IMG/VR virus record: IMGVR_UViG_3300010334_000120
Span: 1 to 38,289 of that record
From: a virus
Length of the DNA: 38,289 nt
Strand: one strand, 5' to 3'
Shown: positions 1 to 19,399 of the stretch, piece by piece
Layout: every line of letters begins with the position of its first letter
How positions within the stretch are numbered: position 1 is the first letter of the stretch
Notes under the pieces: generated by a model
Told to the model about the DNA's origin: nothing
The model's database searches: none
The model's input: only the letters and a program-made list of their open reading frames with translations
Translations under genes and position numbers: made by a program

Positions 1-548
1 AAAAAATTTTGATATTCGTTCATTAAATCTTCATAGGTAGCAGTCGGCTGTGTGGTTAATCTTGGGTGACCATGTTTATCTTTGCCATCACCATCATTTG
101 CATTTTGACTAAATTCGTTGGGTGCAAACGGCAGTTGCTTTTGAGGATCCGCTGGAACATTATCCACGCCAGGAATACCATGATCATGATCCATGCTTTC
201 ATCTGCTGCTTCATCGCTCATGTGATTCATTCTATCCAACATTGTTCGCATGCTATCAGCGTCTTGGTCATTTCTGCTCATGCCAGGCTCTGTTGTCAGC
301 ACTGTGGGCGGTGATTCCGTACCCAGGTGTTCATCCCCAACTGCATGTACGCCAGCCAATTGCATGATTGCATTCAACATATCGCCCAGTTCTTCACCAT
401 TAGCAGCAGTAATATTAAGTGTTGCAGGAGTCTTCGGAGATTGCATATCTCCCATTGGTTCGCATTCTTCAATTTTGTTTTCTTTAACAATATTAGGATT
501 TTTTTCGTCTAATTCTGCTAATCTTTTTAATACATCAATCATTTGCAT
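1..548 (-). CDS. Acidic Met-rich protein of unknown function, cut by the left edge
   Basis: An open frame runs from ATG at 548 off the left edge, giving about 182 residues without a stop. It starts MQMIDVLKRLAELDEKNP and is rich in Asp, Glu, Met and Asn, with a His/Asp stretch near residues 120-125. A second in-frame ATG lies at 542. The first is preferred because GGAG lies about 7 bases upstream of it. The gene begins 2 bases after the preceding stop, so it is in the same operon as the 204-aa protein and small terminase. I do not recognise a named family. Its position, acidity and an early L-A-E (a possible T4-type protease site) would suit a prohead core or internal head protein, but that is inference. 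The plus-strand frames over this region are shadows. Confidence 0.75.
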   Translation of the reverse strand, partial: MQMIDVLKRLAELDEKNPNIVKENKIEECEPMGDMQSPKTPATLNITAANGEELGDMLNAIMQLAGVHAVGDEHLGTESPPTVLTTEPGMSRNDQDADSMRTMLDRMNHMSDEAADESMDHDHGIPGVDNVPADPQKQLPFAPNEFSQNANDGDGKDKHGHPRLTTQPTATYEDLMNEYQNF

Positions 549-550
549 AG

Positions 551-1165
551 TTATGCTCCGTTTAGTGCTTTGACCACATACGTTCCTTGATCCTTAGCGA
601 TAGGACTTTGATTATTATATGGAGTATCTACATTATAAGTTGCAGGCCCTTCTGTAGGAATTTCTTCGCCTCTTGCTTTACGTTGTAATTTTAAAATATC
701 GTTGAGTTCCTTAACAAACCCACTATTATACTTGTCGCCATAATAATCTTCAAATTTGGGGTTACCAGCTTCTTTATATTCAGGGTCATGTAATAGGGCG
801 CCTTTTCTTGGCTCAATTTCCATTTGATACTCTTCGCTAGCCTCGCCAGGACGACGCACTACCAATCTTTGACGACTGACTTCCAAACCAGTGCAGAGAT
901 ATTCTGTAAGTTCTTGTTGTGTTGTGGGATAGTCAACTACCACTTCAAAAATATGAACTTCGCAGTTGTGTATTTGTGGAAAGTCCAAGGGCAATTCCTG
1001 TATGGGAGTAACTGTAATTTTTTTAAATGCATCCACTTGATATCGTTCCAGCATGCTTTTGAGTTTGGACTCTTGATCAGTGGAAAAATCACCTGCCACT
1101 TTGACACGGAACATGTGTTTTTTTGTGGCAATGCTTTCAGATAGGTAGTCGTGGAAATTTTTCAT
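551..1165 (-). CDS. Probable internal head/prohead core protein with capsid-targeting leader (204 aa)
   Basis: The 204-aa protein begins MKNFHDYLSESIATKK. This matches the pattern of T4 capsid-targeting leaders such as that of IPIII (MKTYQEFIAEA): Met-Lys, an aromatic residue, then a hydrophobic-x-Glu site cut by prohead protease gp21. Cleavage after L-S-E would remove 10 residues. The body (about 15-110) looks like a compact alpha/beta domain and the C-terminus is Asn/Gly/Pro-rich and polar. The gene lies 7 bases from the small terminase stop. No Shine-Dalgarno is visible. Instead ATAAATA ends 4 bases before the ATG. Similar proteins of unknown function occur in marine T4-like phages. An internal head or core role is inferred from the leader. 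Confidence 0.8.
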   Translation of the reverse strand: MKNFHDYLSESIATKKHMFRVKVAGDFSTDQESKLKSMLERYQVDAFKKITVTPIQELPLDFPQIHNCEVHIFEVVVDYPTTQQELTEYLCTGLEVSRQRLVVRRPGEASEEYQMEIEPRKGALLHDPEYKEAGNPKFEDYYGDKYNSGFVKELNDILKLQRKARGEEIPTEGPATYNVDTPYNNQSPIAKDQGTYVVKALNGA

Positions 1166-1183
1166 AGTGTATTTATTTATTCA
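1166..1183 (-). promoter_or_regulatory. Late promoter-like ATAAATA box, predicted leaderless start
   Basis: On the minus strand this reads GAATAAATAAATACACT directly before ATG at 1165. The box resembles the T4 late promoter core TATAAATA. T4 late transcription starts about 6 bases after the box, which would put the RNA 5' end at or within 1-2 bases of the ATG. The box overlaps the last codons of the small terminase gene. There is no Shine-Dalgarno between box and ATG. Confidence 0.45.
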
Positions 1184-1655
1184 AATTCTTAAGTTTTTCT
1201 AGTATACTGTTGCGATCTGTCAATATATAGCCCTGGCCCTCTATGGGGTCATCTTCAGTATTTTTTCCGCCTTTTTTGTCAATGGCCAATTTTTTCAACT
1301 GTAGATCCACCATTTTTAATTTTTTATCTATTTTATTGGATTTGGCCTGTATGGCTGCATTCATCATTTGTGCAGCCACTTCAAACATTTTGGTACCATA
1401 TCTAGGATCCACGTTCATGCCCAAGTCCATGAGATCATCATAGGCCTGTTCGGCTTTGTTGGCCAAAGCATCCAATTCAGAGTCTGCCATGTCTCCCAAT
1501 CCCCTGACCCGGGGCAGTGCTGAAGCAATTTTATCAAATTCTTCCAGCTGGTCTTCAAGATTGAATTCAGCCACAGCAAGCACGTTGGTGGGAGGAGCAA
1601 TGGGTGGTTCCTTGGATGGAGGTAGGTCAAACACTTCTTCTAATCGTTTTGTCAT
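1173..1655 (-). CDS. 16: Terminase small subunit (T4 gp16-like)
   Basis: The 160-aa product is close to T4 gp16 (164 aa). It is the DNA-recognition subunit of the packaging motor, forming an oligomer that regulates the large terminase gp17. The acidic N-terminus (MTKRLEEVFDLPP) and the central helical segment around residues 60-125, with MDLGMNVDPRYG and a following KIDKKLKMVDLQLKKL helix, are characteristic of the small terminase of marine T4-like phages. The C-terminus contains a GYILTDRNSILEKL segment. The gene lies between gp4 and a probable head protein. Gp17 is not in the window. The Shine-Dalgarno is weak. The T4-like packaging family assignment is from recognition of the sequence pattern. 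Confidence 0.85.
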   Translation of the reverse strand: MTKRLEEVFDLPPSKEPPIAPPTNVLAVAEFNLEDQLEEFDKIASALPRVRGLGDMADSELDALANKAEQAYDDLMDLGMNVDPRYGTKMFEVAAQMMNAAIQAKSNKIDKKLKMVDLQLKKLAIDKKGGKNTEDDPIEGQGYILTDRNSILEKLKNLNK

Positions 1656-1663
1656 AATTTTAC

Positions 1664-2110
1664 TTATCGTTTTTTCTTGCCCATATTTGCAAAAATATCC
1701 AACTCATTGAGCACACGGAATTTCATGCCACGCTGTTTGCAAAATTCACCAGCAGCCTGCCATTTGGCCATGTTTTTGACATACTGTGCTTGATTGTAGG
1801 GGTTTTTACCCACACGTTCCAATATCATTTGATTTGAGGGTTTGATTTCAATCACTTCCACATGAAACTTTTGATTTCGATCCAAATATTTGATTAAAAA
1901 ATCTGGCACATACACAGTTTGTTTGCCAGTCAACGGATCCTTGTAAGGTATTTTTATTGGTTCACTTGCCCATGATTCTATTGCATCATTATTATCGCAA
2001 AACATGCAGAATGCAGTTTCCCAACTGCTACGACAATAGGGAGTGTTTGATCCTGCGTATTTTTGCGGATTTTTTGGAGTATACGGACCTTGCGCAAATT
2101 TTAAACTCAT
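1664..2110 (-). CDS. 4: Head completion nuclease (T4 gp4/gp50-like, TnsA-type fold)
   Basis: The 148-aa product matches the T4 head-completion protein gp4 (also called gp50/65), about 150 aa, which acts after packaging so that the tail can join. The family has a TnsA-like PD-(D/E)xK endonuclease fold. Visible candidates for the active site are Glu31 in the RSSWE segment, Asp70 in VPDFLIKY, and Glu88/Lys90 in VEVIEIKP, in the expected order and spacing. The N-terminus has the typical K-x-P-x-KY-G-S pattern. The start overlaps the stop of the upstream gene in ATGA, so translation is probably coupled. Start and length agree with the family. Confidence 0.87.
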   Translation of the reverse strand: MSLKFAQGPYTPKNPQKYAGSNTPYCRSSWETAFCMFCDNNDAIESWASEPIKIPYKDPLTGKQTVYVPDFLIKYLDRNQKFHVEVIEIKPSNQMILERVGKNPYNQAQYVKNMAKWQAAGEFCKQRGMKFRVLNELDIFANMGKKKR

Positions 2111-2499
2111 GCCAGTATATTACGTTGAATCAAGGAATTGGGAGTGGGTTTGGATCCAATACCAAGAAAACTGGATTTGAATCTATTGTAATTCAAAATC
2201 TGCGTGACCAGTTCAGTCAGCTGTGCGCCGTTGAACTTTGACAGCCCGTCCAAAGCTACAATGGGATTGATGTTGTCCTGTAAAGCTTGCCGTATGATTA
2301 CAACACTGATTGATTCTGCTGCCACTGGGTCAAATCCCTTGGATGCAAAAAATCCTTTGACAGTGTTAAAGGTACCAGGGCTCAGTTGCAGTGGAAATTG
2401 ATACTGATTGCTGAAATTCTGTGCAGTGCTGTCCACAGTGCCCTGATTGGGTTTGGGTATTGATGGTAAATTGCTGAGATAATTGCTGTTGATGATCAT
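2107..2499 (-). CDS. Small conserved virion protein of T4-like phages (130 aa)
   Basis: The 130-aa protein has a polar N-terminus (about 1-45), then a helical core with FFASKGFDPVAAESIS, a central helix, and a terminal ILNYNRFKSSFLG motif. Proteins with the same FFxSKGF...AESI...ILNYNR pattern occur beside baseplate/tail genes of marine T4-like phages, but no function is known to me. Both ends overlap neighbours in ATGA-type junctions, with the tube-like protein upstream and gp4 downstream, so it is translated as part of this operon. In T4 the neighbour of gp4 here would be baseplate protein gp53, but I see no convincing similarity to it. Confidence 0.75.
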   Translation of the reverse strand: MIINSNYLSNLPSIPKPNQGTVDSTAQNFSNQYQFPLQLSPGTFNTVKGFFASKGFDPVAAESISVVIIRQALQDNINPIVALDGLSKFNGAQLTELVTQILNYNRFKSSFLGIGSKPTPNSLIQRNILA

Positions 2500-3659
2500 G
2501 AAAAACCGCCAGTGCCAAAAGTGGTAGTTTGAACGGTACTGGATGAAACCACAGTGTCACCTTGTCTAGGACCTTGTGAACCAGGTTTGGTCAAACTGAT
2601 CTGAGTGGCGCTGATTTGCCCCACCACGTTGCCCACTATTAAATTTTTGATGTTGAAACCATACACATTCCATGCTTGCCTTGGCTGCTGTACCAAAAGT
2701 TTGAGTTTGTTTACTGTGCTCAAAACCTCCCCCAGTGAAATGCTGTTTTTCTTTTGTTGTCTATAGTAATCAAAATTGGGTCTAGATATTTCATATCTAT
2801 TACCAATATAATCCTCTTCCAATATTTCTTTGCTTGGCACTTTGGCATTTGGCAGCGGTGATGCAGTATTATCATACACTGAATTGTCACCAAACAAAGT
2901 TGCTTCCTGTTGTCCTGCACTGGCAAATCCGCCATCTTCATTGGTTTCTATTACACCTGACTCGTAAACAACATCTTCATAAACCACTGACATTTTGTTG
3001 ATCATGGTCTTGGTGCCTTCGCTCTGCGACAATTGATCATGTTCCCATGTGCTGATCAAAGGATTGACCAAAGTGATTTTGGTAAAGTCATTCTGTGTGG
3101 GACTGCCACTTCTATGCAATAAAAATATATCAATGCTGTCCAAAAAATATGGCTGACCGCTGCCACTAGAATCAATGGCAGTTTCCAAACCATAGCTGTA
3201 ATCATATGTGCCATATTTGGTGTCCGAATATGCTGTTGATAGCCTTATTTTTGATCTACGTTCGCCGTACCTACTGTCTGCATAGTAATATTTGTAGTAA
3301 TTTTCCCAAAATCCGTTGGTAGCGCCACCACGATCATCATGAAATTCCACCGTGACTGGCTCGTAGTTCAATTTGGTCTGCACATTGGTTTTTCTATTGT
3401 ATTGATTCAGGACTTCTGTGCTGATTTTGAACTTGGGCAAAGTTATTTTATTGGCCAGCAGGGCAGTGAATCTAGGATCCCAACTGTTTGTGATTAAATT
3501 TTTGATATTGGCATTGACATTGAATTTGACAAAATACATGTAGGCCATTTTGGGCACATTTTTGTAATTGTCGCTGAGGTACAGTTGCTTGGCATGCTGA
3601 AATCCCGTAAAGACAACATTGCCTGTAGAATCAACAAAATTATCACGTAAGATGGTCAT
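2496..3659 (-). CDS. Tail-tube-like/baseplate tube protein (387 aa)
   Basis: The 387-aa product has an N-terminal region (about 30-215) with the look of a tail-tube fold: MAYMYFVKFNVN, LPKFKISTEVLNQYNR, then YEPVTVEFHDDRGG, followed by IDIFLLHRSG and a hydrophobic strand. The C-terminal part (about 215-387) is Asn/Ser/Thr-rich with a QQKKNSISLGEVLSTVNKL helix. T4 has two baseplate proteins with tube-like domains, gp48 and gp54, and this is probably the equivalent of one of them, nucleating or capping the tube. I cannot decide which. The gene follows a terminator after gp19 and has an ATAAATA box 5 bases before its ATG, with no Shine-Dalgarno. Confidence 0.72.
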   Translation of the reverse strand: MTILRDNFVDSTGNVVFTGFQHAKQLYLSDNYKNVPKMAYMYFVKFNVNANIKNLITNSWDPRFTALLANKITLPKFKISTEVLNQYNRKTNVQTKLNYEPVTVEFHDDRGGATNGFWENYYKYYYADSRYGERRSKIRLSTAYSDTKYGTYDYSYGLETAIDSSGSGQPYFLDSIDIFLLHRSGSPTQNDFTKITLVNPLISTWEHDQLSQSEGTKTMINKMSVVYEDVVYESGVIETNEDGGFASAGQQEATLFGDNSVYDNTASPLPNAKVPSKEILEEDYIGNRYEISRPNFDYYRQQKKNSISLGEVLSTVNKLKLLVQQPRQAWNVYGFNIKNLIVGNVVGQISATQISLTKPGSQGPRQGDTVVSSSTVQTTTFGTGGFS

Positions 3660-3675
3660 ACGATTATTTATTCAA
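3660..3675 (-). promoter_or_regulatory. Late promoter-like ATAAATA box, predicted leaderless start
   Basis: The minus strand reads GAATAAATAATCGT immediately before ATG at 3659. Five bases separate ATAAATA (3671-3665) from the ATG. By analogy with T4 late promoters the RNA would start at the A of the start codon. The box lies just beyond the U-tract of the gp19 terminator, so it restarts transcription for the operon running leftward. Confidence 0.5.
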
Positions 3676-3676
3676 T

Positions 3677-3702
3677 AAAAAAGCCCAGATTTTATCTGGG
3701 CT
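3677..3702 (-). terminator. Rho-independent terminator after gp19
   Basis: A perfect 9-bp inverted repeat, AGCCCAGAT with ATCTGGGCT, surrounds a 3-base loop and is followed on the minus strand by six T. It begins 18 bases after the gp19 stop codon and ends the sheath-tube transcript. Confidence 0.9.
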
Positions 3703-3719
3703 CGAGTTGGGCTTGAAAT

Positions 3720-4346
3720 TTAAACTGCGGATCTTGCTTGTCCACGGATCACGGGCTGTGATGCAGGCAATAGGTTGCCGTCTACTGCGGTTTGATAAGC
3801 ATTATCGAAACAAATTGCTAAATCAATTTCCATCGCATCGCTTTTGGCATAGTCATTGCCGCTATATGTGGCTTTTTTGATCCAACAGCCTTGCAGTTGG
3901 AACACCTCCAACACCGTGGGAGTGAATTGACCATTGCCGCCGTCTAACAGCTCAATGCCCATAAAGAACTTATAGTCCTGTCCACTGAACGCACTGCTTT
4001 GATTGTAAAAATCAAACTGCTTCTGCATCTGCTGTCCCACGAGATTGGTCACATTGTTGTTGACATCATCTCGCAGTTTGAGTGTGATGTCTCCAAATTT
4101 GGCTTTCCCAGCCAGTTTAACTCTGCTGTTGTATACATCCAATGTAACTTCATCAAATTCTGGTGCGGGCCTATCCACAGTCATCACCTGTTTGGTCAAT
4201 TCTGTTGCAGGATTTCCAAATGTTCCAAAACCTGTCAGCGTGACTCTGAATCGATATCCCAACTTTGGCATCAAGAGCCCTTGGTTGGTCGCGCTTTGAT
4301 TGACAGAAAGTGGAACTGTGAAATTATTTAAACTTGATGTTGCCAT
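3720..4346 (-). CDS. 19: Tail tube protein (T4 gp19-like)
   Basis: The 208-aa protein forms the inner tail tube through which DNA passes. It shows the family signatures: NFTVPLS near the start, GLLMPKLGYRFRVTLTGFG (about 24-42), ELTKQVMTVDRP, then VGQQMQKQFDFYNQSSA and the LDGGNGQFTPTVLEVFQLQGC strand pair (about 135-155). T4 gp19 is 163 aa and marine homologues are about 200-215 aa, so the length fits. It lies 26 bases after the sheath gene with a strong AAGGAG Shine-Dalgarno, as expected for an abundant protein, and is followed by an intrinsic terminator. Confidence 0.95.
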   Translation of the reverse strand: MATSSLNNFTVPLSVNQSATNQGLLMPKLGYRFRVTLTGFGTFGNPATELTKQVMTVDRPAPEFDEVTLDVYNSRVKLAGKAKFGDITLKLRDDVNNNVTNLVGQQMQKQFDFYNQSSAFSGQDYKFFMGIELLDGGNGQFTPTVLEVFQLQGCWIKKATYSGNDYAKSDAMEIDLAICFDNAYQTAVDGNLLPASQPVIRGQARSAV

Positions 4347-4372
4347 TTATTACTCCTTGTTCTTTTTATGTT

Positions 4373-7300
4373 TTATCCCACTGCGCTGGAAGGGCTGCCC
4401 TGTGAAGTGGCTCCGTAATTGCCCTTGCCTATGGCTCCAGTGCTCAACAGTCTCAACGGTATGTAGATAAATTCCACTGCCTTGACTGGTTCAATGGCTA
4501 TGTCCACCCACAATTGATTTTGATCAATTCTTGTAGGCGTGTTATTGGATGTGTCACAAACCACCACGTAATCGTACAATCCGCGTTGTGCCACCAGTTC
4601 CTGCATCAAACCCTCAATCACTCGTTTGATTTCATTGCGTGTTTGAGTGTCATTGGGCTCAAACAAAAATGGTTTGGACAGTGTGCTCAATTGACGTCTA
4701 ATGTAATTTACCAATCGAGCCACATTGACTCTGTTTAGTGCCGTTGAGTTGGCTGCTCGAGTGTACTGTCCCATCACAGTGATACCAGACCCTGGCAGTG
4801 TGGCAATGGGATTGATTTGCACTGTGCTTTGGCTCAAGACATCTCTCAGCCCTTGATACAAACTTACAGGTTTAAATTCACCTGTGATGCTATCTATATA
4901 GCCCACTGAATTGGCATTATTAACCAACCCTCTGTTGGTGCCAGCTGGTGCAAACCATGGATAGCCCACATTGTCATTGTTCACAACCACTCTCAGCATC
5001 ATGTGACTGGACGGAACCACTACGTTGCGTCCGTAGTTGTCATTGGTGTATCCGCTGGGGTAATACACTGCTAGGTAAGGATCATGCGTGATAAGACCTT
5101 GCTCGCCGTCACTGACTGCACCCGTACCCTTTCCGTAGTTTTGCAAACTGGTGCCAGTGGGCTCCAAACGCATGGGTGTGTCACCAATCACAAATGCTGT
5201 TTGTCCAATGTCTTGATTTAGACTTACCATGTCTGGTATCAGCTCAGTGTATCCTGGGGTCAGTATCAAACTGTAGTTCAAGGTATCAGTGTCTCTAACA
5301 GAATTGTTAGTGCTCACTGAACTTTTAAGAGCCACGGTCACCATGCTTCTTTGTGCCAATCTACCAAAATTGGCCACTTTGTGATCATTCATGCCGCTCA
5401 CTGTGACCCAACGATCAGGAGCATATGTTAATTGACTTTCGTTGCCGTTGTTGGGATTAGTGCCATTGATATTGACATGGTTGACCATGTACTGTTTGAT
5501 CACGTTGCCACTTCTACGTGTGTTCCACAATTTGGATCCTTTGGGATATAATCTTGCATCAGGAGCGTCTGCATCTAGATATGTGCTGACCAACAAGTCT
5601 GTGATGGGAGTGATGTATTCCATATCATCTGTGCCGTTATCGCTCCAACGAGCATCACCAAATACCCAACCATTGGGACTCACGTGATCAGTTACATCCT
5701 GTTTGATCCAAGTTTTTGAGGTTAGATTGTACATGTAAATTTCTTGACCATACATGTCAGGTTCGCCAGCATCTACCCATAGGTCGCCATTAACTAGAGG
5801 AGTGCCATCGCTTTGAACAGTGGGCTGACTGGCACTAACTATAGGTCCTGCTGGATCTGTATTGGGGTATGCTCCGGCTGTTCTATATCCTACCCAAGCA
5901 GACCCGTTGTTCCACAATATGTCAATGTCATGCGTTCTTGTGTCAAACCATAAGGCGCCGTCAGCAGGGTAGCTGTTGGGTGCATGGATTTGACTGATAT
6001 AGGTCAGTGGTGCCCAATTACTGGCCTGATACGTAGTTACCCCGTTAGTGAGAATGTCTGAGCTGGATGCAATGTAAAGATTGGCAATGTTGCCGTTAGA
6101 CACATTAGTGTCTGTAATACCCAGTTTGGCCAATGGGCCATTGCCATTGCCTGGCTGACCATCAGCCAGTTCTATTTCACCACCAAGAGCATGACTAAAT
6201 GTCAATGTACCATTGACAAAGCTGGCCGACACTTGCGTGAGGTTAGTGTTGGTATTGATTGCTGCTGCTACATTTTGTGCCAAAGGTACTGTGTTGGATC
6301 CAGGTACACTGATCAACTGTGTGCTACCCCATTGGCCTGTTCTCAAAGTTTCTTTGACATAGAAATTCAATGTGGCTGCATTGTAAACAGTACTGGAACT
6401 CACTGCAAATGTGGTTGGACCAGTATGCTCGCGAGTCAGTATGAAGAAATCTGCATTGTTGACCCCGTTGTAGTCATAGAGCACAACAACAGAATTTTGT
6501 TTGATGTTTAAGCCGCCCTTGGGATCCAAACCTGCAATTGCTTCCTGTCTGCTGCCATACTGAGGAGTATTGACCAAAGTCCACTGAGCAGTATCACTGT
6601 TGTAGTATTTTAAATTCCAACTGGCTCCAATGTTTATGGGGGTGTCACAGATCCAAACACTGCCTGTGGCAGTGTTGGCATTGAATGCAGGATAGTTGAA
6701 ATGCTCACTGATCTGCAGAGCTTTGCCGCCGTCAAACCCTTGACTCACTGGTACCCACCCGTTGTTAGCTGATTTGTAGTACAACTGTGATTGAAGGCCA
6801 TACAAGTCAGTGGGACCATTTGGCAAGTACATGGCATAATCGCCAACTTTGCCGTAAGTGGCCAACGGTTCACCATTAGAATAGTTTTGCAAATTGGAAT
6901 TGTCAATAATAGTGACTGGAGTGTTGACCAATGCACCTTCGCCGTTGTTGAGTGCAGCGTCCCAAACATTGATACCAAATTGTGTTTTACTAGTTGTGTC
7001 CAACCAAAATTGTCCGGCAAGCGGTGTACCATGCGGTATAGTTGATGATCCTTTGAGCTCAGTCAAGTTGATGTTGGCTCGCACTATGTAGGCTCTGCTG
7101 GTTATTCCCAAAACACTGTAGGCAGCTTGCAGTCCATACTCGCTGATCTCACTGCCATTGATGGCGTTTTTTCCGGAGTCAACATCAAAATATGGAGTAC
7201 CAAATGTATCCACCAAATCCCTCTGACTGGTTATTGAATACACTGTGCCTGCTGTGCCTGCTGTGGTGCCTTTAGCAGTGCCAGTTTGACTGGCATTTTG

Positions 7301-7417
7301 CTTATCTTGCCCAGTCGCTACAAAGATTAGAGGTATAGTACCTAAACCTGGTGGTGTATAGAAACTTTGATCTATTACACTTACATTTACACCTGGCGAT
7401 TGTATTGTTGTTGCCAT
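4373..7417 (-). CDS. 18: Tail sheath protein, enlarged (T4 gp18-like, 1014 aa)
   Basis: The protein forms the contractile tail sheath. The N-terminus (MATTIQSPGVNVSVIDQS) and the C-terminal domain (about 890-1000, including SKPFLFEPNDTQTRNEI and VKAVEFIYIPLRL) are the conserved inner sheath parts that hook subunits together and bind the tube. T4 gp18 is 659 aa. The excess lies in the middle (about 125-620), where several Trp-rich units occur, such as GSVWICDTP, GALWFDTRT and GDLWVDAGE, each followed by a strand ending near Trp. These probably decorate the outside of the sheath (inference). An AAGGAG Shine-Dalgarno lies 8 bases upstream of the ATG. A weak TAAATAAA box lies about 30 bases upstream. 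Confidence 0.95.
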   Translation of the reverse strand: MATTIQSPGVNVSVIDQSFYTPPGLGTIPLIFVATGQDKQNASQTGTAKGTTAGTAGTVYSITSQRDLVDTFGTPYFDVDSGKNAINGSEISEYGLQAAYSVLGITSRAYIVRANINLTELKGSSTIPHGTPLAGQFWLDTTSKTQFGINVWDAALNNGEGALVNTPVTIIDNSNLQNYSNGEPLATYGKVGDYAMYLPNGPTDLYGLQSQLYYKSANNGWVPVSQGFDGGKALQISEHFNYPAFNANTATGSVWICDTPINIGASWNLKYYNSDTAQWTLVNTPQYGSRQEAIAGLDPKGGLNIKQNSVVVLYDYNGVNNADFFILTREHTGPTTFAVSSSTVYNAATLNFYVKETLRTGQWGSTQLISVPGSNTVPLAQNVAAAINTNTNLTQVSASFVNGTLTFSHALGGEIELADGQPGNGNGPLAKLGITDTNVSNGNIANLYIASSSDILTNGVTTYQASNWAPLTYISQIHAPNSYPADGALWFDTRTHDIDILWNNGSAWVGYRTAGAYPNTDPAGPIVSASQPTVQSDGTPLVNGDLWVDAGEPDMYGQEIYMYNLTSKTWIKQDVTDHVSPNGWVFGDARWSDNGTDDMEYITPITDLLVSTYLDADAPDARLYPKGSKLWNTRRSGNVIKQYMVNHVNINGTNPNNGNESQLTYAPDRWVTVSGMNDHKVANFGRLAQRSMVTVALKSSVSTNNSVRDTDTLNYSLILTPGYTELIPDMVSLNQDIGQTAFVIGDTPMRLEPTGTSLQNYGKGTGAVSDGEQGLITHDPYLAVYYPSGYTNDNYGRNVVVPSSHMMLRVVVNNDNVGYPWFAPAGTNRGLVNNANSVGYIDSITGEFKPVSLYQGLRDVLSQSTVQINPIATLPGSGITVMGQYTRAANSTALNRVNVARLVNYIRRQLSTLSKPFLFEPNDTQTRNEIKRVIEGLMQELVAQRGLYDYVVVCDTSNNTPTRIDQNQLWVDIAIEPVKAVEFIYIPLRLLSTGAIGKGNYGATSQGSPSSAVG

Positions 7418-7514
7418 CTTTCAAACTCCTTAGTGGATTACTTTGTTTTATTTAGCGGGAATTTAAAAAAATAGCAGTAAATAACAGTGCCAAAAGGCGC
7501 TAAAAAGGGCGGTG

Positions 7515-7850
7515 ATGAGAAAATTATGCAAAACCTGTGGTACCAATCCCGTGGCCGTAAACTATTACAAAGGTGACCAAGTTTATTATAGACGCCAATG
7601 CGATCACTGTGCCAAAGGCAGGAAAAACTTTAGGCCCTTATGGGCATTGTCTGGATACCAAAAGAAAAACAATTGCGAAAAATGCAACTACACATCAATG
7701 TATCAAGAACAGTTCAATGTGTTTTACATTGACGGCAATCTAAACAACAACAGATTGACCAACCTAAAAACCATATGTGCTAACTGTCAAAGAACATTAC
7801 ATAGAGAAGGGGTCAAATGGCGACAAGGAGATTTGACCCCAGATTTTTAA
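7515..7850 (+). CDS. HNH-like zinc-binding protein, possibly inactive (about 111 aa)
   Basis: The small basic protein has four CxxC pairs (residues 6/9, 30/33, 55/58 and 89/92, counted from GTG at 7512), enough for two zinc sites. The second half resembles an HNH nuclease: FYIDGNLNNN, then NL and a CANCQR segment with a late His97. In active HNH enzymes the first motif is typically HHIDGN or VHHIDG. Here the catalytic His position is Tyr72, so cleavage may be lost or altered. GTG (7512) and ATG (7515) are adjacent and ATG is preferred. The gene stands alone on the plus strand between sheath and dNMP kinase, like a free-standing homing gene or a small DNA-binding regulator. The role is not established. 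Confidence 0.82.
   Translation: MRKLCKTCGTNPVAVNYYKGDQVYYRRQCDHCAKGRKNFRPLWALSGYQKKNNCEKCNYTSMYQEQFNVFYIDGNLNNNRLTNLKTICANCQRTLHREGVKWRQGDLTPDF
7810..7849 (+). terminator. Hairpin at the convergent end of HNH-like and dNMP kinase genes
   Basis: A 10-bp perfect inverted repeat (GGGGTCAAAT at 7810-7819 and ATTTGACCCC at 7832-7841) with a 12-base loop overlaps the 3' end of the HNH-like gene. It is followed on the plus strand by AGATTTTTAA. It could terminate the plus transcript, and possibly the opposing kinase transcript, whose stop lies 17 bases to the right. The T-tract is short, so efficiency is uncertain. Confidence 0.5.
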
Positions 7851-7857
7851 ATGCAGA

Positions 7858-8496
7858 TCATTTCAAAACATTTTCAAGTTGAAAAAACAAATAGTCTATG
7901 GTGCTGTCATTGGTTATGACATGATCAATGTCTACACCAACCCAAGCTGTTTCACTAGCGTGTATGCCTAATTTTTCCAATTTGGCCCTACTCAAAGCCC
8001 ATGAAATATTTCCTTGTTCGCCTTGGTTGGCACTGACGGCATCATTGTACCATTCGGGTTCAGGACCCCTTTTTATGCGTATCACCATGCCCCCCACATT
8101 GTGAATGGCCTGAATTTCGTTGGGAAATCTAACGTCACTGATCACAATGTTGTCTTGGGTTTTTCTAATCTTGTTTTCCAAACTGGCTATCCATATGTTG
8201 TCATGGAAATATTGACGCAGTACATCTGTACCCCAATATTGCAACACCCATCTTGGCGTGAGGTTGTGTATGTCCAACCTTTGGCTCCACCAGGGATCCA
8301 CCTGCTCCCGCCATTTCCTAGACTCAACTGTTCTGCCATCTAACAGTATGCGATCCCAACCAAACACACATGACACTGCATCTTTGAGAGAGGAAGCAAA
8401 ACTGTCTCTTCTAAATCCGTGATAATTGCAAAGATAATCAGCTGCTGTATCCTTGCCTGCTGAGATAAAACCACAAAATCCTATTACTTTGGCCAT
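7858..8496 (-). CDS. 1: Deoxynucleoside monophosphate kinase (T4 gp1-like)
   Basis: The 212-aa enzyme phosphorylates dNMPs to dNDPs, supplying precursors for phage DNA synthesis in the cytoplasm. The Walker A loop is GFISAGKDT at residues 9-17, the same form as T4 gp1 (GVKRSGKDT). Further family features are LQYWGTDVLR (about 85-94), the NIVISDVRFPNE segment (about 115-126) and GGMVIRIKR. T4 gp1 is 241 aa, so this is slightly shorter. It is the only recognised nucleotide-metabolism enzyme on this strand among virion genes, and it has its own sigma70-like promoter and AAAGGATG Shine-Dalgarno, which suggests early expression separate from its late neighbours. Confidence 0.9.
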   Translation of the reverse strand: MAKVIGFCGFISAGKDTAADYLCNYHGFRRDSFASSLKDAVSCVFGWDRILLDGRTVESRKWREQVDPWWSQRLDIHNLTPRWVLQYWGTDVLRQYFHDNIWIASLENKIRKTQDNIVISDVRFPNEIQAIHNVGGMVIRIKRGPEPEWYNDAVSANQGEQGNISWALSRAKLEKLGIHASETAWVGVDIDHVITNDSTIDYLFFQLENVLK

Positions 8497-8510
8497 ATAA
8501 CATCCTTTAG

Positions 8511-8546
8511 ATATTACATTCTATAAAATTTTATAGGTAAAGTCAA
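8511..8546 (-). promoter_or_regulatory. Sigma70-like promoter for dNMP kinase
   Basis: On the minus strand TTGACT (8546-8541) is followed after exactly 17 bases by TAGAAT (8523-8518), each matching five of six consensus bases. The predicted start near 8511 leaves a leader of about 15 bases with AAAGGATG before the ATG at 8496. The spacer contains the perfect 16-bp palindrome CTATAAAATTTTATAG (8521-8536), a possible operator. Confidence 0.55.
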
Positions 8547-8560
8547 TGAAATTGATTTAA

Positions 8561-9325
8561 TTATCCAGTGACCCAGGTCAACGGTGTGGAGCCGTCTTTA
8601 TATGTATTTAGATCTAATTCTAAAGCTTCCATTTCTGCCTTGGCTTCTGCTTTGAGTTGACTGCCATTTAGAGCGCTACTGCCCTGTGGTCCAGCAATGG
8701 CTGGGAATTTTTCCCTAGCTTGGCCCAATATCATTTTGGCATTGGCCAGAGCATAATCTTTTAACCATTGCCCTGAATACACATCCTCCAACAAATTGAA
8801 GTCGGGTCTATGATTGTACATCCATACCAAAATGTGCTCGCCAGCATGTGGGCGTTGGTGTATGACCAGTTTGTGACTGGTAGAATTGTAAGAAAAATTT
8901 ATGTCACTACCAAACATTTTGCCCACTTGTTTTTGATAGCCTGCAAACGCATAGTAGGTGGCCAAACCACCCATGTTGGTTGATGCCAAGAGATAGGTGT
9001 TGCTGTAGGCCAAATTAAAGGGTTCAAATATGGTTCCGCCGTCGCCACCGCCAGATCTTGAACCCACGCTTCTTCTAAACAGTTGTCTTATACTGACCAC
9101 TTCTTTGGGCATGATGTATTCGTTGGTGTCCAATACTAGATCCAAAAATCCATAGCTTTCCTCCACAGAATTGGAAGCACGTTGCCGATATTTGGCCAGG
9201 GCTCGATCTATGGAAATATTGTAGTCGCTGGCATCCAGCTCAACATCCACCAAGTTGCCACCTAGAAATGTTTTGATATATTCCACTATCTGTTGTCTAG
9301 AATTTTCAGTTTCGCTGTTGTACAT
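8561..9325 (-). CDS. 13: Neck protein (T4 gp13-like)
   Basis: The 254-aa protein is the gp13 neck or head-completion protein that, with gp14, caps the portal and forms the docking site for the tail. The N-terminal helical part (about 8-55: IVEYIKTFLGGNLVDVEL, then DRALAKYRQRAS), the EYIMPKEVVSIRQLFRR strand region (about 69-86) and the late YSGQWLKDYALANAKMILGQ helix (about 183-202) fit the family. T4 gp13 is 309 aa. The gene is divergent from gp14, unlike T4 where 13, 14 and 15 are co-directional. The ATG is preceded by ATAAATA-GAACT and no Shine-Dalgarno. Confidence 0.87.
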   Translation of the reverse strand: MYNSETENSRQQIVEYIKTFLGGNLVDVELDASDYNISIDRALAKYRQRASNSVEESYGFLDLVLDTNEYIMPKEVVSIRQLFRRSVGSRSGGGDGGTIFEPFNLAYSNTYLLASTNMGGLATYYAFAGYQKQVGKMFGSDINFSYNSTSHKLVIHQRPHAGEHILVWMYNHRPDFNLLEDVYSGQWLKDYALANAKMILGQAREKFPAIAGPQGSSALNGSQLKAEAKAEMEALELDLNTYKDGSTPLTWVTG

Positions 9326-9362
9326 AGTTCTATTTATGCAAATAAATACACTTGAATAGGAG
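9326..9362. promoter_or_regulatory. Divergent late promoter pair between gp13 and gp14
   Basis: The 44-base spacer holds two opposed late-type boxes. On the minus strand GCATAAATA (9339-9331) lies 5 bases before the gp13 ATG. On the plus strand AATAAATA (9341-9348) is followed by a predicted start near 9354 and then AGGAGA (9358-9363) for gp14. The boxes nearly abut and together form an imperfect palindrome (TATTTATGCAAATAAATA). Confidence 0.55.
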
Positions 9363-9369
9363 ACACAAA

Positions 9370-10566
9370 ATTCCCAAACTGAGTTTATATAGGCCAGAAA
9401 AAGGTCTTGACTTTAAATTTATAGATCGAACAGTTAATGAACGCTTTCAAGTGGGCGGGGTGGACTGTTTGATACACAAGTATATTGGGCCAGTATCGCC
9501 CACGGGGGATACAGTCACTCCCACGACCCCAGTGACCAGTCAAAATTCTGTGCCTGAATTGGGCATTCAAGATGTGCTGTTTATGGAAAATCGTGATAGA
9601 AAATATGCACCTGATGTTTATGTGATTAGGGGAATTTACACCATGCAGGATTTGGATTTTAATCTAAGTCAGTTTGGTTTGTTTTTGAACAATGATACCA
9701 TAATGATGCATTTCCATCTTGGAACCAGTGTGCAAGCATTGGCTAGAAAAATAATGCCTGGTGATGTGATTGAACTGCCACACTTGAAAGATGAATATGG
9801 TCTCGATGACAATCTAACAGCTTTGAGAAGATTTTATGTGGTACAGGAGGTGTCTAGACCCACTGCGGGATTCAGCGTCACCTGGTACCCGCATTTGATC
9901 AAGGCCAAATGTGTGCCGTTGGTTGACAGTCAAGAATTCAATCAAATTTTGGAACAAGATTCTGGAAACAATGACGGCAGTACACTAAGGGATCTCTTAT
10001 CCACATACAATCAAAATATCAAGATAAATGAGCAAATTATCCAACAAGCCACCCAAGACTCGCCCATGAGTGGCTATGAAACTAGAAGTTTTTACGTCAT
10101 GCCAACAACGGATTTGATCAGTGATGCCAGCAATGATTATGACAATGCCAGCATGGATCAGTTGTCCAAAGATGCCAGCATCGTTTTGCAAACTCCCAAT
10201 AAAAATATATATATAGGGTATCTAACTGGAGATGGAGTACCACCCAATGGATATCCTTTTGGTTCAGGTGCTGTGTTTCCCTCCGCACCTTCACAGGGCA
10301 GTTATTTTTTACGAACAGATTATTTTCCCAATGTGCTGTATAGATTTGATGGCACCAATTGGCTGCTGTTTGAACAGAATGTGCGCATGACCATGAATGA
10401 ATTTGGTGTGCAAGACACAACAGCGGCGCCTTTCATTGGCAATCAAATACGTCAAACACAAAAGGCTTCTTTTATCAACAATGCCACAACCAGCACCATC
10501 AATGGTCAAATGGTCAAAGAAAGACAGGCTTTGAATCAAGCTTTGAAACCAAGAGCCGACAACTAA
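9370..10566 (+). CDS. 14: Neck protein (T4 gp14-like), probable ATT start
   Basis: The protein resembles T4 gp14, which sits between gp13 and the tail terminator gp15. The core includes DLNFNLS-like FGLFLNNDTIMMHFHL, then PGDVIELPHL, FYVVQEVSRP and FSVTWYPHL (within about 100-195). Marine homologues begin MPKLSLYRPEKG. Here the codon before PKLSLYRPEKG is ATT at 9370, placed 6 bases after AGGAGA. An in-frame TTG at 9352 would add six residues (NRRHK) and put the Shine-Dalgarno inside the coding region. I therefore favour ATT, giving 398 aa. T4 gp14 is 256 aa. The extra C-terminal part (about 210-398) contains one Trp/Tyr-rich unit (GSYFLRTDYFPNVLYRFDG). gp15 follows after 10 bases. Confidence 0.83.
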   Translation: MPKLSLYRPEKGLDFKFIDRTVNERFQVGGVDCLIHKYIGPVSPTGDTVTPTTPVTSQNSVPELGIQDVLFMENRDRKYAPDVYVIRGIYTMQDLDFNLSQFGLFLNNDTIMMHFHLGTSVQALARKIMPGDVIELPHLKDEYGLDDNLTALRRFYVVQEVSRPTAGFSVTWYPHLIKAKCVPLVDSQEFNQILEQDSGNNDGSTLRDLLSTYNQNIKINEQIIQQATQDSPMSGYETRSFYVMPTTDLISDASNDYDNASMDQLSKDASIVLQTPNKNIYIGYLTGDGVPPNGYPFGSGAVFPSAPSQGSYFLRTDYFPNVLYRFDGTNWLLFEQNVRMTMNEFGVQDTTAAPFIGNQIRQTQKASFINNATTSTINGQMVKERQALNQALKPRADN

Positions 10567-10576
10567 GGGACACAGC

Positions 10577-11998
10577 ATGGATCACTTTTATTCAGGCCAA
10601 ATACGAAGATATCTCACTCAGTTCATGAGAGCCATGAGCAGTTTCAGTTATCAGGACGGGCAGGGCGCACTGCATCAAGTGCCTGTAATGTACGGAGACC
10701 CTAATAGGCAAGTGGCCAATATTTTGAAAAAGAACTCAGAAAACACATTGCCTGCTGCCCCTTTTATTGCCTGTTACATCAAGGCACTGGATTACGACCA
10801 AACCAGACTGCAGGATCCCACCTTTGTCAGCAAGGTACACATCAAGGAAAGAAGTTTTGATGACAACATAGGAGACTACACCTACACACAGGGTGTGGGC
10901 TACACTGTGGAACGCATAATGCCCAGTCCTTACAATTTGACACTGACTGCTGACATATGGACCACTAATACAGATCAAAAGCTGCAAATCATTGAACAGT
11001 TGGCCTACTTGTTCAACCCCAGTTTGGAAATACAAACCACTGACAATTATGTGGATTGGACCAGTTTGACAGTGCTGCAATTGAAGTCTACCGTTTGGTC
11101 CACACGTCAAATACCTCAGGGTGTGGAACAAAATATTGACATAGGCAGTTTGGTATTTGAAACACCCATTTGGATCACACCCCCTGCTAAGGTCAAAAAG
11201 TTGGGCATCATTACCAAAATTATTGCAAATATTTTCAGCGATGATCCCAACACCATAGCCACCAACTACGGTGATTTGAACGCAGTTTATGCAAATTTAG
11301 GCACCAGCGAAGCAAGATCAGTGGTCACACCAGGCAACTATGATCTCTTAGTGTTGAACAATGTGGGAACTCTTTTGCAAAACAGGGTAGCCACAGGCAG
11401 TGCCTACAACTCACAGCCCACCAGCAAATACAACTGGTACACTCTACTCAATCAATATCCCAACAAATTCAAAGCAGGACTCAGCTATGTCACGCTGAAA
11501 ACTGCCATGGGATTGGACATTGTGGCCTATATAGCTATAGATGCCATTGAAGACACCAAGATACAGTTGACTTTTGATCCAGATACTTTGCCCAGTAACA
11601 CAGTGATCAATGCGCAGGTGGGCAACAGTACAGTGAGTAGGGGCACAATTGATGCCATCATCAATCCTGAAACATTTAGACCAGATTTGCCTGCCAATGA
11701 TACTAGATATTTAATTTTGGAAAATATAAATCAAGTGTCTGAGTTTGCTGTATCTGCCAGTTATCACGGACCACAGGCTTGGAAAAACAGTGATCAAACC
11801 AATTTTCAAGCTCATGCCAATGACATCATACAGTGGGACGGTGTCAAATGGAACGTGATATTTGACAGCACCGCTGCCACTCAGGTGTACTATGTGACCA
11901 ACATCTACACAGGTGTTCAATATGTTTGGCAAAATGACAGTTGGACCAAGAGCTATGAAGGAGCCTATAGTCCTGAAAATTGGAATTTGGTGTTGTGA
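10577..11998 (+). CDS. 15: Tail terminator/sheath stabiliser (T4 gp15-like, extended)
   Basis: The 473-aa product caps the finished tail and joins it to the neck. The N-terminal domain (about 1-210) matches T4 gp15: HFYSGQIRRYLTQFMRAMSS, VPVMYGDPNRQVANIL, TVERIMPSPYNLTLTADIWT, then QIIEQLAYLFNPSLEIQTT and LVFETPIWITPP. T4 gp15 is 272 aa. The C-terminal extension of about 200 residues is beta-rich, ending in two Trp-rich units (IIQWDGVKWNVIFD and YVWQNDSWTKSYEG) like those in the sheath and fibres. AAGGGA lies upstream of the ATG. The stop overlaps the Nudix start in TGATG, so those two are translationally coupled. Confidence 0.88.
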   Translation: MDHFYSGQIRRYLTQFMRAMSSFSYQDGQGALHQVPVMYGDPNRQVANILKKNSENTLPAAPFIACYIKALDYDQTRLQDPTFVSKVHIKERSFDDNIGDYTYTQGVGYTVERIMPSPYNLTLTADIWTTNTDQKLQIIEQLAYLFNPSLEIQTTDNYVDWTSLTVLQLKSTVWSTRQIPQGVEQNIDIGSLVFETPIWITPPAKVKKLGIITKIIANIFSDDPNTIATNYGDLNAVYANLGTSEARSVVTPGNYDLLVLNNVGTLLQNRVATGSAYNSQPTSKYNWYTLLNQYPNKFKAGLSYVTLKTAMGLDIVAYIAIDAIEDTKIQLTFDPDTLPSNTVINAQVGNSTVSRGTIDAIINPETFRPDLPANDTRYLILENINQVSEFAVSASYHGPQAWKNSDQTNFQAHANDIIQWDGVKWNVIFDSTAATQVYYVTNIYTGVQYVWQNDSWTKSYEGAYSPENWNLVL

Positions 11999-12429
11999 TG
12001 CGCGATCAAGTGATCTGCAGCGGCGGCTTGTTTTTGGCTCAAGACACCATGAGGTTCATGCTACTGCTGAGAACACAGGGAAAAACAGCAGGTACATGGG
12101 GTTTGGTGGGCGGCAAAAAAGAACCAGGCGATGTCACAGCCTCAGATGTGCTGCATCGTGAAATTAGAGAAGAAATTGGCATGATTCCCGAGATCAAAAA
12201 AATCATACCACTAGAACTGTTTACCAGCAACGACAACAATTTTGAATATAACACATATGTTTTGCTAGTGGGATCTGAGTTTGTGCCCACACTGAATGGT
12301 GAGCACAGCAGTTATGCATGGTGTGCTTTTGATCACTGGCCCAAACCTCTACATCAAGGAGTCAAACACAGTTTGGCTAATAGAGTGGTTCGAGCCAAAC
12401 TTCAGCTATTGCTGGATCTTTTGAATTGA
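11998..12429 (+). CDS. Nudix hydrolase (about 143 aa)
   Basis: The protein starts at the ATG in the TGATG overlap with the gp15 stop, and an upstream in-frame alternative at 11980 is less likely. It contains a Nudix box, the Mg-binding helix of enzymes that cleave nucleoside diphosphates linked to another moiety. The segment reads GGKKEPGDV followed by REIREEIGM, giving the REUxEExGU core intact. The preceding Glu of the GX5EX7REUXEEXGU consensus is Asp, and one extra residue lies before RE. A substrate cannot be told: NADH, ADP-ribose, NTP clean-up or an RNA 5' end are all possible. It is the last gene of the gp14-gp15 operon and converges on the 1592-aa gene with a 10-base gap. Confidence 0.9.
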   Translation: MRDQVICSGGLFLAQDTMRFMLLLRTQGKTAGTWGLVGGKKEPGDVTASDVLHREIREEIGMIPEIKKIIPLELFTSNDNNFEYNTYVLLVGSEFVPTLNGEHSSYAWCAFDHWPKPLHQGVKHSLANRVVRAKLQLLLDLLN

Positions 12430-12439
12430 TACAGCTATA

Positions 12440-15400
12440 TCAAAGGTGCTGTGTTTCAAAGGTATGGGTATTGGGACTGGCAGTCCAGTCATAAGTGGAG
12501 TTGGGCCAAAACATCATGTCCATGCCAGGTGTGGGAGGTGTGTTAAATATCCATCCCGTGTTGTTGCCCGCATCAAAATTGTAATAGGGCACATTGGTAC
12601 CTCCATAGTAGGTTGAGTTATATGCATAGCCTGGTCTAAAAGCCGTACCTGACCCTGTGCCCGTGTTCACTGTGCCAGGTGCAAACCAAAGATATTTGTC
12701 AATGGCATTGCTGTCTTTGATGGTCATGTTGTTGACCACACGTCCATCATTGAATGTGCCCCTATGAGGTTTGAGCACAGAAATATTGAATTGATAACTG
12801 GGCGAAACACTTTGCAACACAGTGTTGTTGGCAGTGTTGTTGTAGCCATACCAATCGCTGTTTGAATCGTATGGTGCAGCAGTGTCGTTGTAGGTGAAAT
12901 TCACAAAAGTGGTGGTGCTTTTGGCTGTGAATTTGAATATGGCGGGTCCCAAACCTGATGCTGCCAAATCATCAAACTGTGCTCTTGATGGCACAAGCCC
13001 TGTAAAATCCGTACAGGGGTTGATGGTGATAGTAGGAGTGGGCTCCTCAGAGCTTTTTTTCCAACTGCCAATGGCAATGTTGGTGTATGTGCCCATGTAG
13101 GCATTGAACACGCTGCCATCGTAAAAATATATATAGTTCTCACCATAGCCAGAGTCTGCTGAAAAGTAATTGGTCACCGTGGAGGGAAAAATCACCAAAG
13201 AATCAGTGATGCCCAGGCTGCCCAAATAGAGACTGGCTCCTTGTAGGTACACACGGGTATAGCCACCAAAAGAAGTGGGGCCTATGGTGTCTTGAATGGT
13301 CAAACTAGTGGCAGTCAATGACACTCGATTGTTTGTATATGGATGTGTGTTCACGGAAATGTTACCCCCCATGAACTTCAAATCACCATATTTACCAACC
13401 ACAATGTACTCGCTGGTCACATTGGGTACATCTAGGAAGGTATTAAAGTAGTAGGGATATAGTGAGCTGTATCCAGAGGATTGTTTTAATCCTGGCTGAT
13501 TGGTAAACATCACATATTGATACGTGCTGGTACCCACAACCACTGGTATCATTGAGGAGGCGTAAATAGAAATAATGCCACTGCCTTGAAAGTAAAGTTT
13601 GGCATCATAGGTAGCAAATTCGCCACCCATACCCCCTATGCTATAGCCTGTGGATGGTATGATCAATCCTCCCAACTGATCATACACTGAACCCGCAAAA
13701 TAGTTCAAATTGGAGTTTCTCAAGGTGTCACTTGCTGGTGATGTATCATTGGCGCAAAAGATCATGCTTGCACCGAAATAAATGCTCATACCTGTTCGTC
13801 CTTGCCACGTGTATTCGCCAAGGTCAAAGTCGTAGCCTTGATATTGACCAAATATCAAAGTTTGCACCAGCATGGGTGATTCTTCTTCCAAATAGGATTC
13901 AAATCGAACGCTGCTGTAGCTATCCATACCATAAGTCGCCTGATCGCTAAAGTCAAAAATCAAGGCATTGAAGTTGGGGCTGGTGCTGGTGCTCACTGCC
14001 TCAGTTTGACCTGGTTGGTGTGGCACCTGATTGCCATAATTCCTCAGAGTTCCTGGTAGAACGGTAACACTGTTAAGGTAATAGTTAGTGAAGTTTATTA
14101 TGCTTGGAGCATAGGTCAAATTGGGGTCTGACGGACTCACTGTGGTAATGGTCAAACGTGAGTTATTGCTGGACCACAAAACGCCGCTCCAGCCAGTGAT
14201 ATTGAACGCAATAGGCTGAATAGTGTAGTTGTCAGTGCCATGCACAAATGTTGATTGTGTTGGGCTGGATGCTGAATCAAAGTTTACAAATTTAAAACTG
14301 GGTGCTTGCGCCCGGGTGTTCAAAGTTTGGTCCACCGTGCCTGCTGTCACATATAGCCCAGCGATGCTTTGTGTTGAGCCTTGAATCACATAGTAGCCGC
14401 CCTCTATAATGATGTTGGGATTGAACTGGCTCAAAACATCTATCTGTGCTGGTTGTGCTGGATTACCGCCACTGAAACGAAATTCAGGTACTAGATTATA
14501 GACATTTTGGTTTCTGTTGCCAGTGAGCATGTTGTCATTTGAAAATAAATGACCCGCTTCCCTGTGGGCTATTTTTACTGTTGTTGATGGCTGTGACGAA
14601 TACAAGGGATATCCCGTCAACCTAGAGCCGGCAATGCGTCTTGTATCCAAACCTGCCATCACCACAGTTGTAGAATTGTCCAAAAGAACACGCTGATAAA
14701 TTTCACCGTTTTGCTTGATGATCAAATAGCAGGCAGGGCTTCTGCTGATTATGGAACCAAGATGCAGTATTGCGTAACTTTTACTTGTCCATGCTCCATG
14801 ATTTTTAGTTGTGATGTTGACTGTGATTGGACCGCCCGACTGCCATTCATACACATAAAAGGCCAGTGCATCAGGAAAGTTCTGTGCGGCAGTGTACCCT
14901 ATGGTATTGGGATATTGATTCAGAAGGGTTATGCAATAGTAGTCAGGAGTGTTAAATATCACAAAATCATTTTGGTATGGCCTTTTAGTGGAGCTGCTGT
15001 TGTTGTAATTACTGAGATCTTTTATTATTGAAGAACTAACATCACTTGATGTTTGATAGTACCCAGCCCAGTTTACGCCAATGGCTATGTTTGGCGGTGT
15101 GTCCGATGTACTGGCTCCAGTCACCAAGTTGCCAGTATCCGAATTCACATACACATTCAATTTGTTGATTGTAGCTGTTATGTCAAAAACATCTGTTTGT
15201 ATCATGCCGTTGATGTAAGGCATCAGACCTTCCCTGCTATACTCACTCAAAAAATTGAACAGTATCGTGGGGCTGCCCAAGATAGTAGTGTAATAAGTCG
15301 TGTAATAGGGCATGTCTTTGACTACAAAATAGCCATAATAGTAATTGTTACTTTTGTCAACACTATACCGCAAAAAAATGTCATTGTCACTGTATAAATC

Positions 15401-17218: not shown

Positions 17219-17230
17219 GCCTGATACCTG

Positions 17231-19342: not shown

Positions 19343-19399
19343 TAGTTTCCCTTTCCACGTAACAGCTCAAATTGCAAATTTATTTATCAACTGTGGGAT
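19343..19399 (-). promoter_or_regulatory. Late promoter-like box and RBS before the 703-aa fibre
   Basis: The 57-base gap contains GATAAATAAA on the minus strand (ATAAATA at 19387-19381) and an AAAGGG Shine-Dalgarno shortly before ATG at 19342. The predicted leader is about 30 bases. No terminator hairpin is visible after the 1928-aa gene. Confidence 0.42.

Follow-up and report, generated by a model that had tools for sequence, protein, structure and literature searches.

Short promoter-to-start spacing points to leaderless late messages in a clade of uncultured jumbo myophages

The virus record IMGVR_UViG_3300010334_000120 (38,289 bp; this whole stretch is referred to as the window) represents part of the genome of a RaK2/PA5oct-like jumbo myophage. 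Three of its late genes, encoding a gp13-like neck protein, a 387-aa tail-tube-like protein and a 204-aa protein, carry a T4-type late promoter box immediately before the start codon. About a dozen late gene families in the clade to which the window belongs share this short box-to-ATG spacing, and we conclude, with a probability of roughly 85%, that these genes are expressed from leaderless late mRNAs.

Late promoter boxes adjoin the start codons of three genes

The features of the window that bear on this conclusion are the following; gp18 is included as a leadered contrast.

8561..9325, minus strand: gp13-like neck protein (head-tail adaptor Ad2), predicted leaderless; phrog_211, E=2.7e-32
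9331..9337, minus strand: late promoter box ATAAATA of gp13, 5 nt (GAACT) before the ATG at 9325; TAAATA at 5-6 nt in 159/185 gp13 loci
2496..3659, minus strand: tail-tube-like protein, 387 aa, predicted leaderless; phrog_13438, E=6e-11, and phrog_4542, E=1.1e-8
3665..3671, minus strand: late promoter box ATAAATA of the 387-aa gene, 5 nt (ATCGT) before the ATG at 3659; 5 nt in 21/22 orthologues
3681..3703, minus strand: intrinsic terminator (hairpin and T tract) located immediately before the 387-aa gene's box; top terminator match in 1-19600 (z=-3.8), present in 20/21 orthologues
551..1165, minus strand: 204-aa protein, weak virion structural match (phrog_14802, E=4.8e-4), predicted to have no leader or one of about 3 nt
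1170..1180, minus strand: two overlapping late boxes, ATAAATAAATA, of the 204-aa gene; orthologues at 4, 5, 7 and 8 nt
7449..7454, minus strand: gp18 box TAAATA, 31 nt before the ATG; 33/33 gp18 orthologues have the box at 29-34 nt with a Shine-Dalgarno (SD) site
7426..7431, minus strand: gp18 SD, AAGGAG

An earlier note on this DNA had described ATAAATA 4-5 nt before the ATG of three genes lacking an SD. We confirmed spacings of 5, 5 and 4 nt for gp13, the 387-aa gene and the 204-aa gene, respectively, and saw no SD upstream of any of the three. The two boxes of the 204-aa gene, at 1180-1174 and 1176-1170 on the minus strand, lie 8 and 4 nt ahead of the ATG at 1165 and overlap the stop codon of the preceding 160-aa gene. 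The strong AAGGAG-type sites that had been ascribed to gp18, gp19 and a 240-aa gene are also present. Overlooked in that description were a fourth ATAAATA (9342-9348, plus strand), which faces a divergent head-protein gene, and TAAATA boxes 21-38 nt from the ATG of the 2545-aa, 703-aa and gp18 genes.

The window holds 8 copies of ATAAATA against 7.4 expected, which is no more than chance. A box lies 3-6 nt upstream at 3 of the 17 gene starts; among 5000 dinucleotide shuffles of the same upstream regions, 4900 yielded no such site and 100 yielded one. These shuffles, together with the motif permutations described below, rule out chance placement of the boxes.

The spacing is conserved and bimodal across the clade

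The earlier note had proposed a survey of the box-to-ATG distance in related genomes, and the spacing is conserved there. Of 80 loci carrying a gp13 relative, nearly all read [A/C]TAAATA-N5-ATG at its start. In a wider set, comprising the 185 gp13 loci where a box is present and the upstream region is intact, TAAATA lies 5 nt from the ATG at 150 loci and 6 nt at 9, a further 26 loci are leadered (15-41 nt), and none falls at 7-14 nt. The gp13 promoter is retained, and the leader is either missing or long enough to hold an SD. A tree of 138 distinct gp13 proteins requires at least five changes between the leaderless and SD-leadered modes: the large clade that includes the window is leaderless in 117/120, with leadered exceptions such as L229 (AAAGGAG), and the PA5oct clade is leadered in 14/15, as is gp13 of RaK2, GAP32 and a Vibrio phage. 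The single leaderless member of the PA5oct clade, L188, is an independent gain of the leaderless form or a relic.

We determined the distance genome-wide for all starts in the first 80 loci and the window (202 dereplicated starts). The distribution is bimodal, with 70 of the 202 starts at exactly 5 nt, 20 at 7-8 nt, none at 10-15 nt, and a second hump that peaks at 30-32 nt. For 14 other permutations of the motif, at most 5 starts were found at 5 nt, and the bimodality was not reproduced. Five larger clade records have 3-18 starts each at 3-8 nt, with an SD in only 1 of 58; most noise is seen in the largest record, G001, which has seven starts at 9-15 nt. Five further genomes contain TAAATA-N5-ATG 7-11 times, compared with 1-2 times for the reversed pattern. 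By the same measure, T4, Syn9, RaK2 and PA5oct have 0-2 starts with a box at 3-8 nt. Given these counts and the leadered gp13 genes of the isolates, we rule out that the spacing is a trait common to T4 and the isolated jumbo phages.

Families (one of which was queried through phrog_234 and phrog_12791) divide by mode. Those with short spacing include gp13, the terminase large subunit, the tube-like protein, a gp25-like wedge protein, an AlgH-like protein and several virion proteins; those with a leader and an SD include sheath, tube, an HNH-type gene and several long surface-type proteins. An SD precedes 0 of 141 starts in the recurrent short-spacing families, compared with 33/33 gp18, 31/31 HNH-type and 6/6 gp19 starts, and the major capsid gene has CAAGGAGA followed by ATG. 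The mode is kept within families across deep divergence (gp18 leadered in 33/33, terminase leaderless in 11/11). In the 5-nt class, a pyrimidine (T or C) precedes the ATG in 100 of 101 members, compared with 99 of 176 leadered genes. Start codons at 5 nt are ATG in 65 cases and ATT and ATC in one each, with no GTG or TTG, consistent with leaderless translation in E. coli, for which an AUG start is expected (PMC9031893).

The promoter assignment is consistent with the sigma factors that these phages encode. A gp55-family sigma is present in 8 of 9 records tested, including PA5oct-clade, PA5oct and RaK2 records. Among six leaderless-clade records, five encode it (E<=1e-81 to the RaK2-type family, <=3e-24 to the T4 family), and it was not found in the sixth, G003, a 90-kb fragment. 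The sequence [A/C/G]TAAATA is conserved before late genes and corresponds to the TATAAATA-like box of a T4-type late promoter; C at -12 of the clade's box resembles the Aeh1-type variant described previously (PMC2988020). The T4 box spans -13 to -6 (PMC2988020), so a 5-nt spacing would put +1 on the A of the AUG. A pyrimidine at -1 and a purine at +1 is the usual context around an RNA start, and the 5-nt class would match it.

Upstream insulation and start codon assignment

If the RNA began farther upstream, these genes could be translated without being leaderless. The box might be a real late promoter while translation relies on longer read-through or upstream-initiated messages, independent of an SD in an A/T-rich region, in which case the position of the box would be a by-product of compact intergenic spaces. 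We consider this improbable. It would fit the 204-aa family, where a co-directional gene always ends 4-7 nt upstream and there is no terminator, and it would fit the many operon-internal genes of the window that have no SD. However, no upstream message is expected for gp13, which lies in a divergent gap (it faces a divergent open reading frame (ORF) in 31/35), or for genes right behind terminators; a terminator lies directly upstream in 20/21 tube-like genes, 11/11 terminase genes and 4/4 members of a third family. Moreover, compactness leaves unexplained the exact 5-nt spacing, the empty zone at 10-15 nt and the pyrimidine at -1. It is far less likely still that the start codons are misassigned, with the true starts farther downstream behind ordinary leaders. 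Leadered gp13 orthologues indicate that a leader is tolerated, but in the gp13, head, 204-aa and terminase families the bias of substitutions towards codon position 3 is present immediately behind the ATG (the signal is weakest in gp13 and terminase, and the tube-like family offers few pairs), and the gp13 N-termini align with those of annotated isolates.

Several points weigh against leaderless expression of the short-spacing genes. The position of +1 is extrapolated from T4. A message that starts upstream can serve the 204-aa gene as well. Lack of an SD is not specific by itself, since many of the window's operon-internal genes have none either. Some families have the box at 7-8 nt, and would have leaders of 2-3 nt. 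For gp13 and the 387-aa gene, there is strong support for the proposal in the earlier note that transcription begins at or beside the ATG, given the conserved 5-nt spacing, T4 geometry, pyrimidine-A junction, lack of an SD, and the terminator or divergent gene upstream. The case for the 204-aa gene is weaker because the spacing varies among orthologues and the co-directional gene ends so close; this gene may also be translated from a longer message.

The divergent head-protein gene alternates between predicted leaderless AUG and SD-led AUU starts

The gene divergent from gp13 has its own late box, and three features define its predicted start.

9342..9348, plus strand: divergent ATAAATA box, the late promoter of the head-protein gene; the back-to-back arrangement is conserved
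9358..9363, plus strand: SD of the head-protein gene, AGGAGA; GGAG lies 7 nt before ATT in 16/17 distinct leaders
9370..10566, plus strand: head/virion structural protein, predicted to start at AUU at 9370, aligned with the ATG of leaderless orthologues; phrog_11591, E=1.5e-82

The ORF as listed begins at a TTG at 9352, and is 6 codons longer than from the AUU; ORF callers place the start at this TTG or elsewhere. Leaderless head genes start with ATG (116 loci). Head genes with an SD leader have, at the aligned position, ATT in 34 cases, TTG in 2 and ATG in 1 (L244); two more leadered loci without a called SD have TTG and ATG, respectively. The head gene of the window falls in the ATT group, and the combination of AUU with an SD leader recurs on several branches of the tree. 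Among 17 distinct ATT leaders, 13 have no in-frame ATG, GTG, TTG or CTG upstream, and 15 have no in-frame ATG in the next 24 codons.

That 36 of 37 head genes with an SD have AUU or UUG in place of AUG suggests selection that keeps initiation weak. The head-gene tree requires 11 changes, at least 6 of them on supported branches, and a sign test of leader against start codon had only 5 well-supported independent pairs (p 0.06); the link between leader and start codon is strong in count and modest in independent events. The PA5oct and RaK2 orthologues have an SD and ATG, so weak initiation is not a general rule outside the clade.

Neighbouring genes and nearest relatives

The window's proteins have T4-like head and tail families as their matches: the neck protein gp13, the sheath protein gp18 (1014 aa), the tube protein gp19 and a second tube-like protein, with further matches to head closure, dNMP kinase, sheath stabilizer and major capsid proteins. 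The nearest phage records to gp13 are PA5oct (45%), then GAP32, RaK2 and similar phages (~36%), all jumbo myophages, and no isolate falls inside the window's clade. Two tail-tube-like genes stand in tandem on the minus strand (2496-3659 and 3720-4346), one leaderless behind a terminator and the other with AAGGAG. PA5oct carries the same pair, and the first protein, 387 aa in the window, exceeds 1000 aa in some relatives (L030). A small HNH-like gene at about 7512-7850 (plus strand) lies on the opposite strand to gp18 and the dNMP kinase gene; its orthologues have their own late box 27-33 nt off and an SD-like site.

As to translation factors, no phage-encoded initiation factor 3 (IF3) was found in eight genomes. 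We rejected phage-encoded bS21 as a cause of leaderless initiation: besides G001, the SD-leadered PA5oct and G011 encode it, and it was not found in other leaderless genomes. The bS21 gene of G001 lies beside that of a ClpX-like protein (L089, 17596-17832 and 17819-19048, minus strand), and leaderless-spaced genes of G001 resemble ClpS (L089) and peptide deformylase (L102); these two names, like that of ClpX, come from reading the sequences only.

Discussion

We propose that gp55-type late promoters in these phages are placed so that, in about a dozen families, RNA would start on the A of the start codon or no more than about 3 nt from it, and that the ribosome would begin at the 5'-terminal AUG without SD pairing, as in known leaderless translation. 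Bulk proteins such as sheath and tube would use this promoter type too, combined with a longer leader and AAGGAG. On the simplest reading, one promoter type would set timing, and for a subset of late proteins the mode of initiation would hold output low or leave it tuned by IF3. In T4, sheath, tube and capsid are high-copy proteins, and neck, terminase and wedge are low-copy. The most probable role of the two modes, with close to an even chance in our judgement, is to separate a low-output, IF3-sensitive set (gp13, gp17, the gp25-like wedge, minor head and tail proteins) from a high-output SD set (sheath, tube, major capsid). This division has exceptions: a baseplate wedge protein is leadered, without an SD, and fibre-like families are mixed. 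The suggestion in the earlier note that leaderlessness sets low expression is supported indirectly, by the leaderless neck, terminase and wedge genes, the SD of capsid, sheath and tube genes, and the replacement of AUG by AUU in the SD-bearing head gene. Late timing, the note's other suggestion, would be a matter of the promoter, common to leadered genes as well, rather than of leaderlessness.

When IF3 is in excess in E. coli, initiation is inhibited at non-canonical start codons, on leaderless mRNAs and in SD-less re-initiation (PMC2268962). AUU is one such codon and, judging from the gene starts, all three kinds of initiation seem to be in use in these phages. We tentatively suggest that virion stoichiometry is set at translation, with low-copy late proteins made by IF3-sensitive initiation (leaderless AUG, SD with AUU, or SD-less re-initiation) and capsid, sheath and tube made from an SD with AUG; the level of host IF3 could then shift the two output classes. 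If so, the repeated swap between leaderless AUG and SD with AUU in the head gene would be a signature of such control. It is about equally conceivable that the leaderless starts are real and have no regulatory role, being kept by a near-neutral promoter-gene distance or by a host that reads leaderless mRNA well. Consistent with this, gp13 has switched mode repeatedly on its tree with no known consequence. However, other families, such as gp18 and terminase, have kept their mode over deep divergence, and the near-universal AUU or UUG of SD-bearing head genes suggests selection for weak initiation.

To our knowledge, leaderless messages in phages of Gram-negative bacteria have been known mainly as odd single cases. 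Here, leaderless messages appear to serve a whole class of late genes that is conserved across a large clade of uncultured phages. The sharp spacing rule is usable by annotators, and gene callers limited to AUG, GUG and UUG will misplace the AUU head gene. The alternation in that gene also amounts to a natural experiment on the purpose of leaderless initiation.

Comparison with known systems

The clade shares with the T4 late promoter system (TATAAATA; gp55/gp33/gp45) the core TAAATA, an encoded gp55-family sigma, and the location of the box before structural genes. The difference lies in the spacing: a box 3-8 nt before the ATG is a rarity in T4, Syn9, RaK2 and PA5oct, whereas about a dozen families of the clade have it. 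Late promoters of the T4 type have also been predicted in phages CBB and GAP32 (PMC5259590); the CBB paper lists ATAAATA at 35 places and does not mention leaderless messages. The ATAAATA late promoter in related jumbo phages and leaderless mRNA as such were already known. Literature searches on leaderless late genes in T4-like phages, on leaderless transcripts of jumbo phages and on AUU starts in phages, with most subscription journals outside the search, returned no precedent.

Known leaderless phage genes are mostly single regulatory genes, whereas the clade has a conserved class of late structural and packaging genes on one promoter type. As in leaderless mRNAs of phages (lambda cI) and bacteria (PMC9031893), the AUG lies at or next to the predicted 5' end, there is no SD, and AUG is nearly obligatory. 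In Deinococcus-Thermus, a -10-type element a few nucleotides before the start codon gives rise to leaderless transcripts in many genes (PMC12340547). There the sigma factor is the host's, whereas the pattern in the clade implies a late sigma of the phage and is confined to a subset of the late genes. E. coli infC starts with AUU behind an SD, and IF3 discriminates against non-canonical starts of this sort. The head gene of the clade shows the same pattern, with a strong SD at normal spacing and mostly no better in-frame start; here, however, the combination occurs in a phage head gene and has alternated in evolution with a leaderless AUG form.

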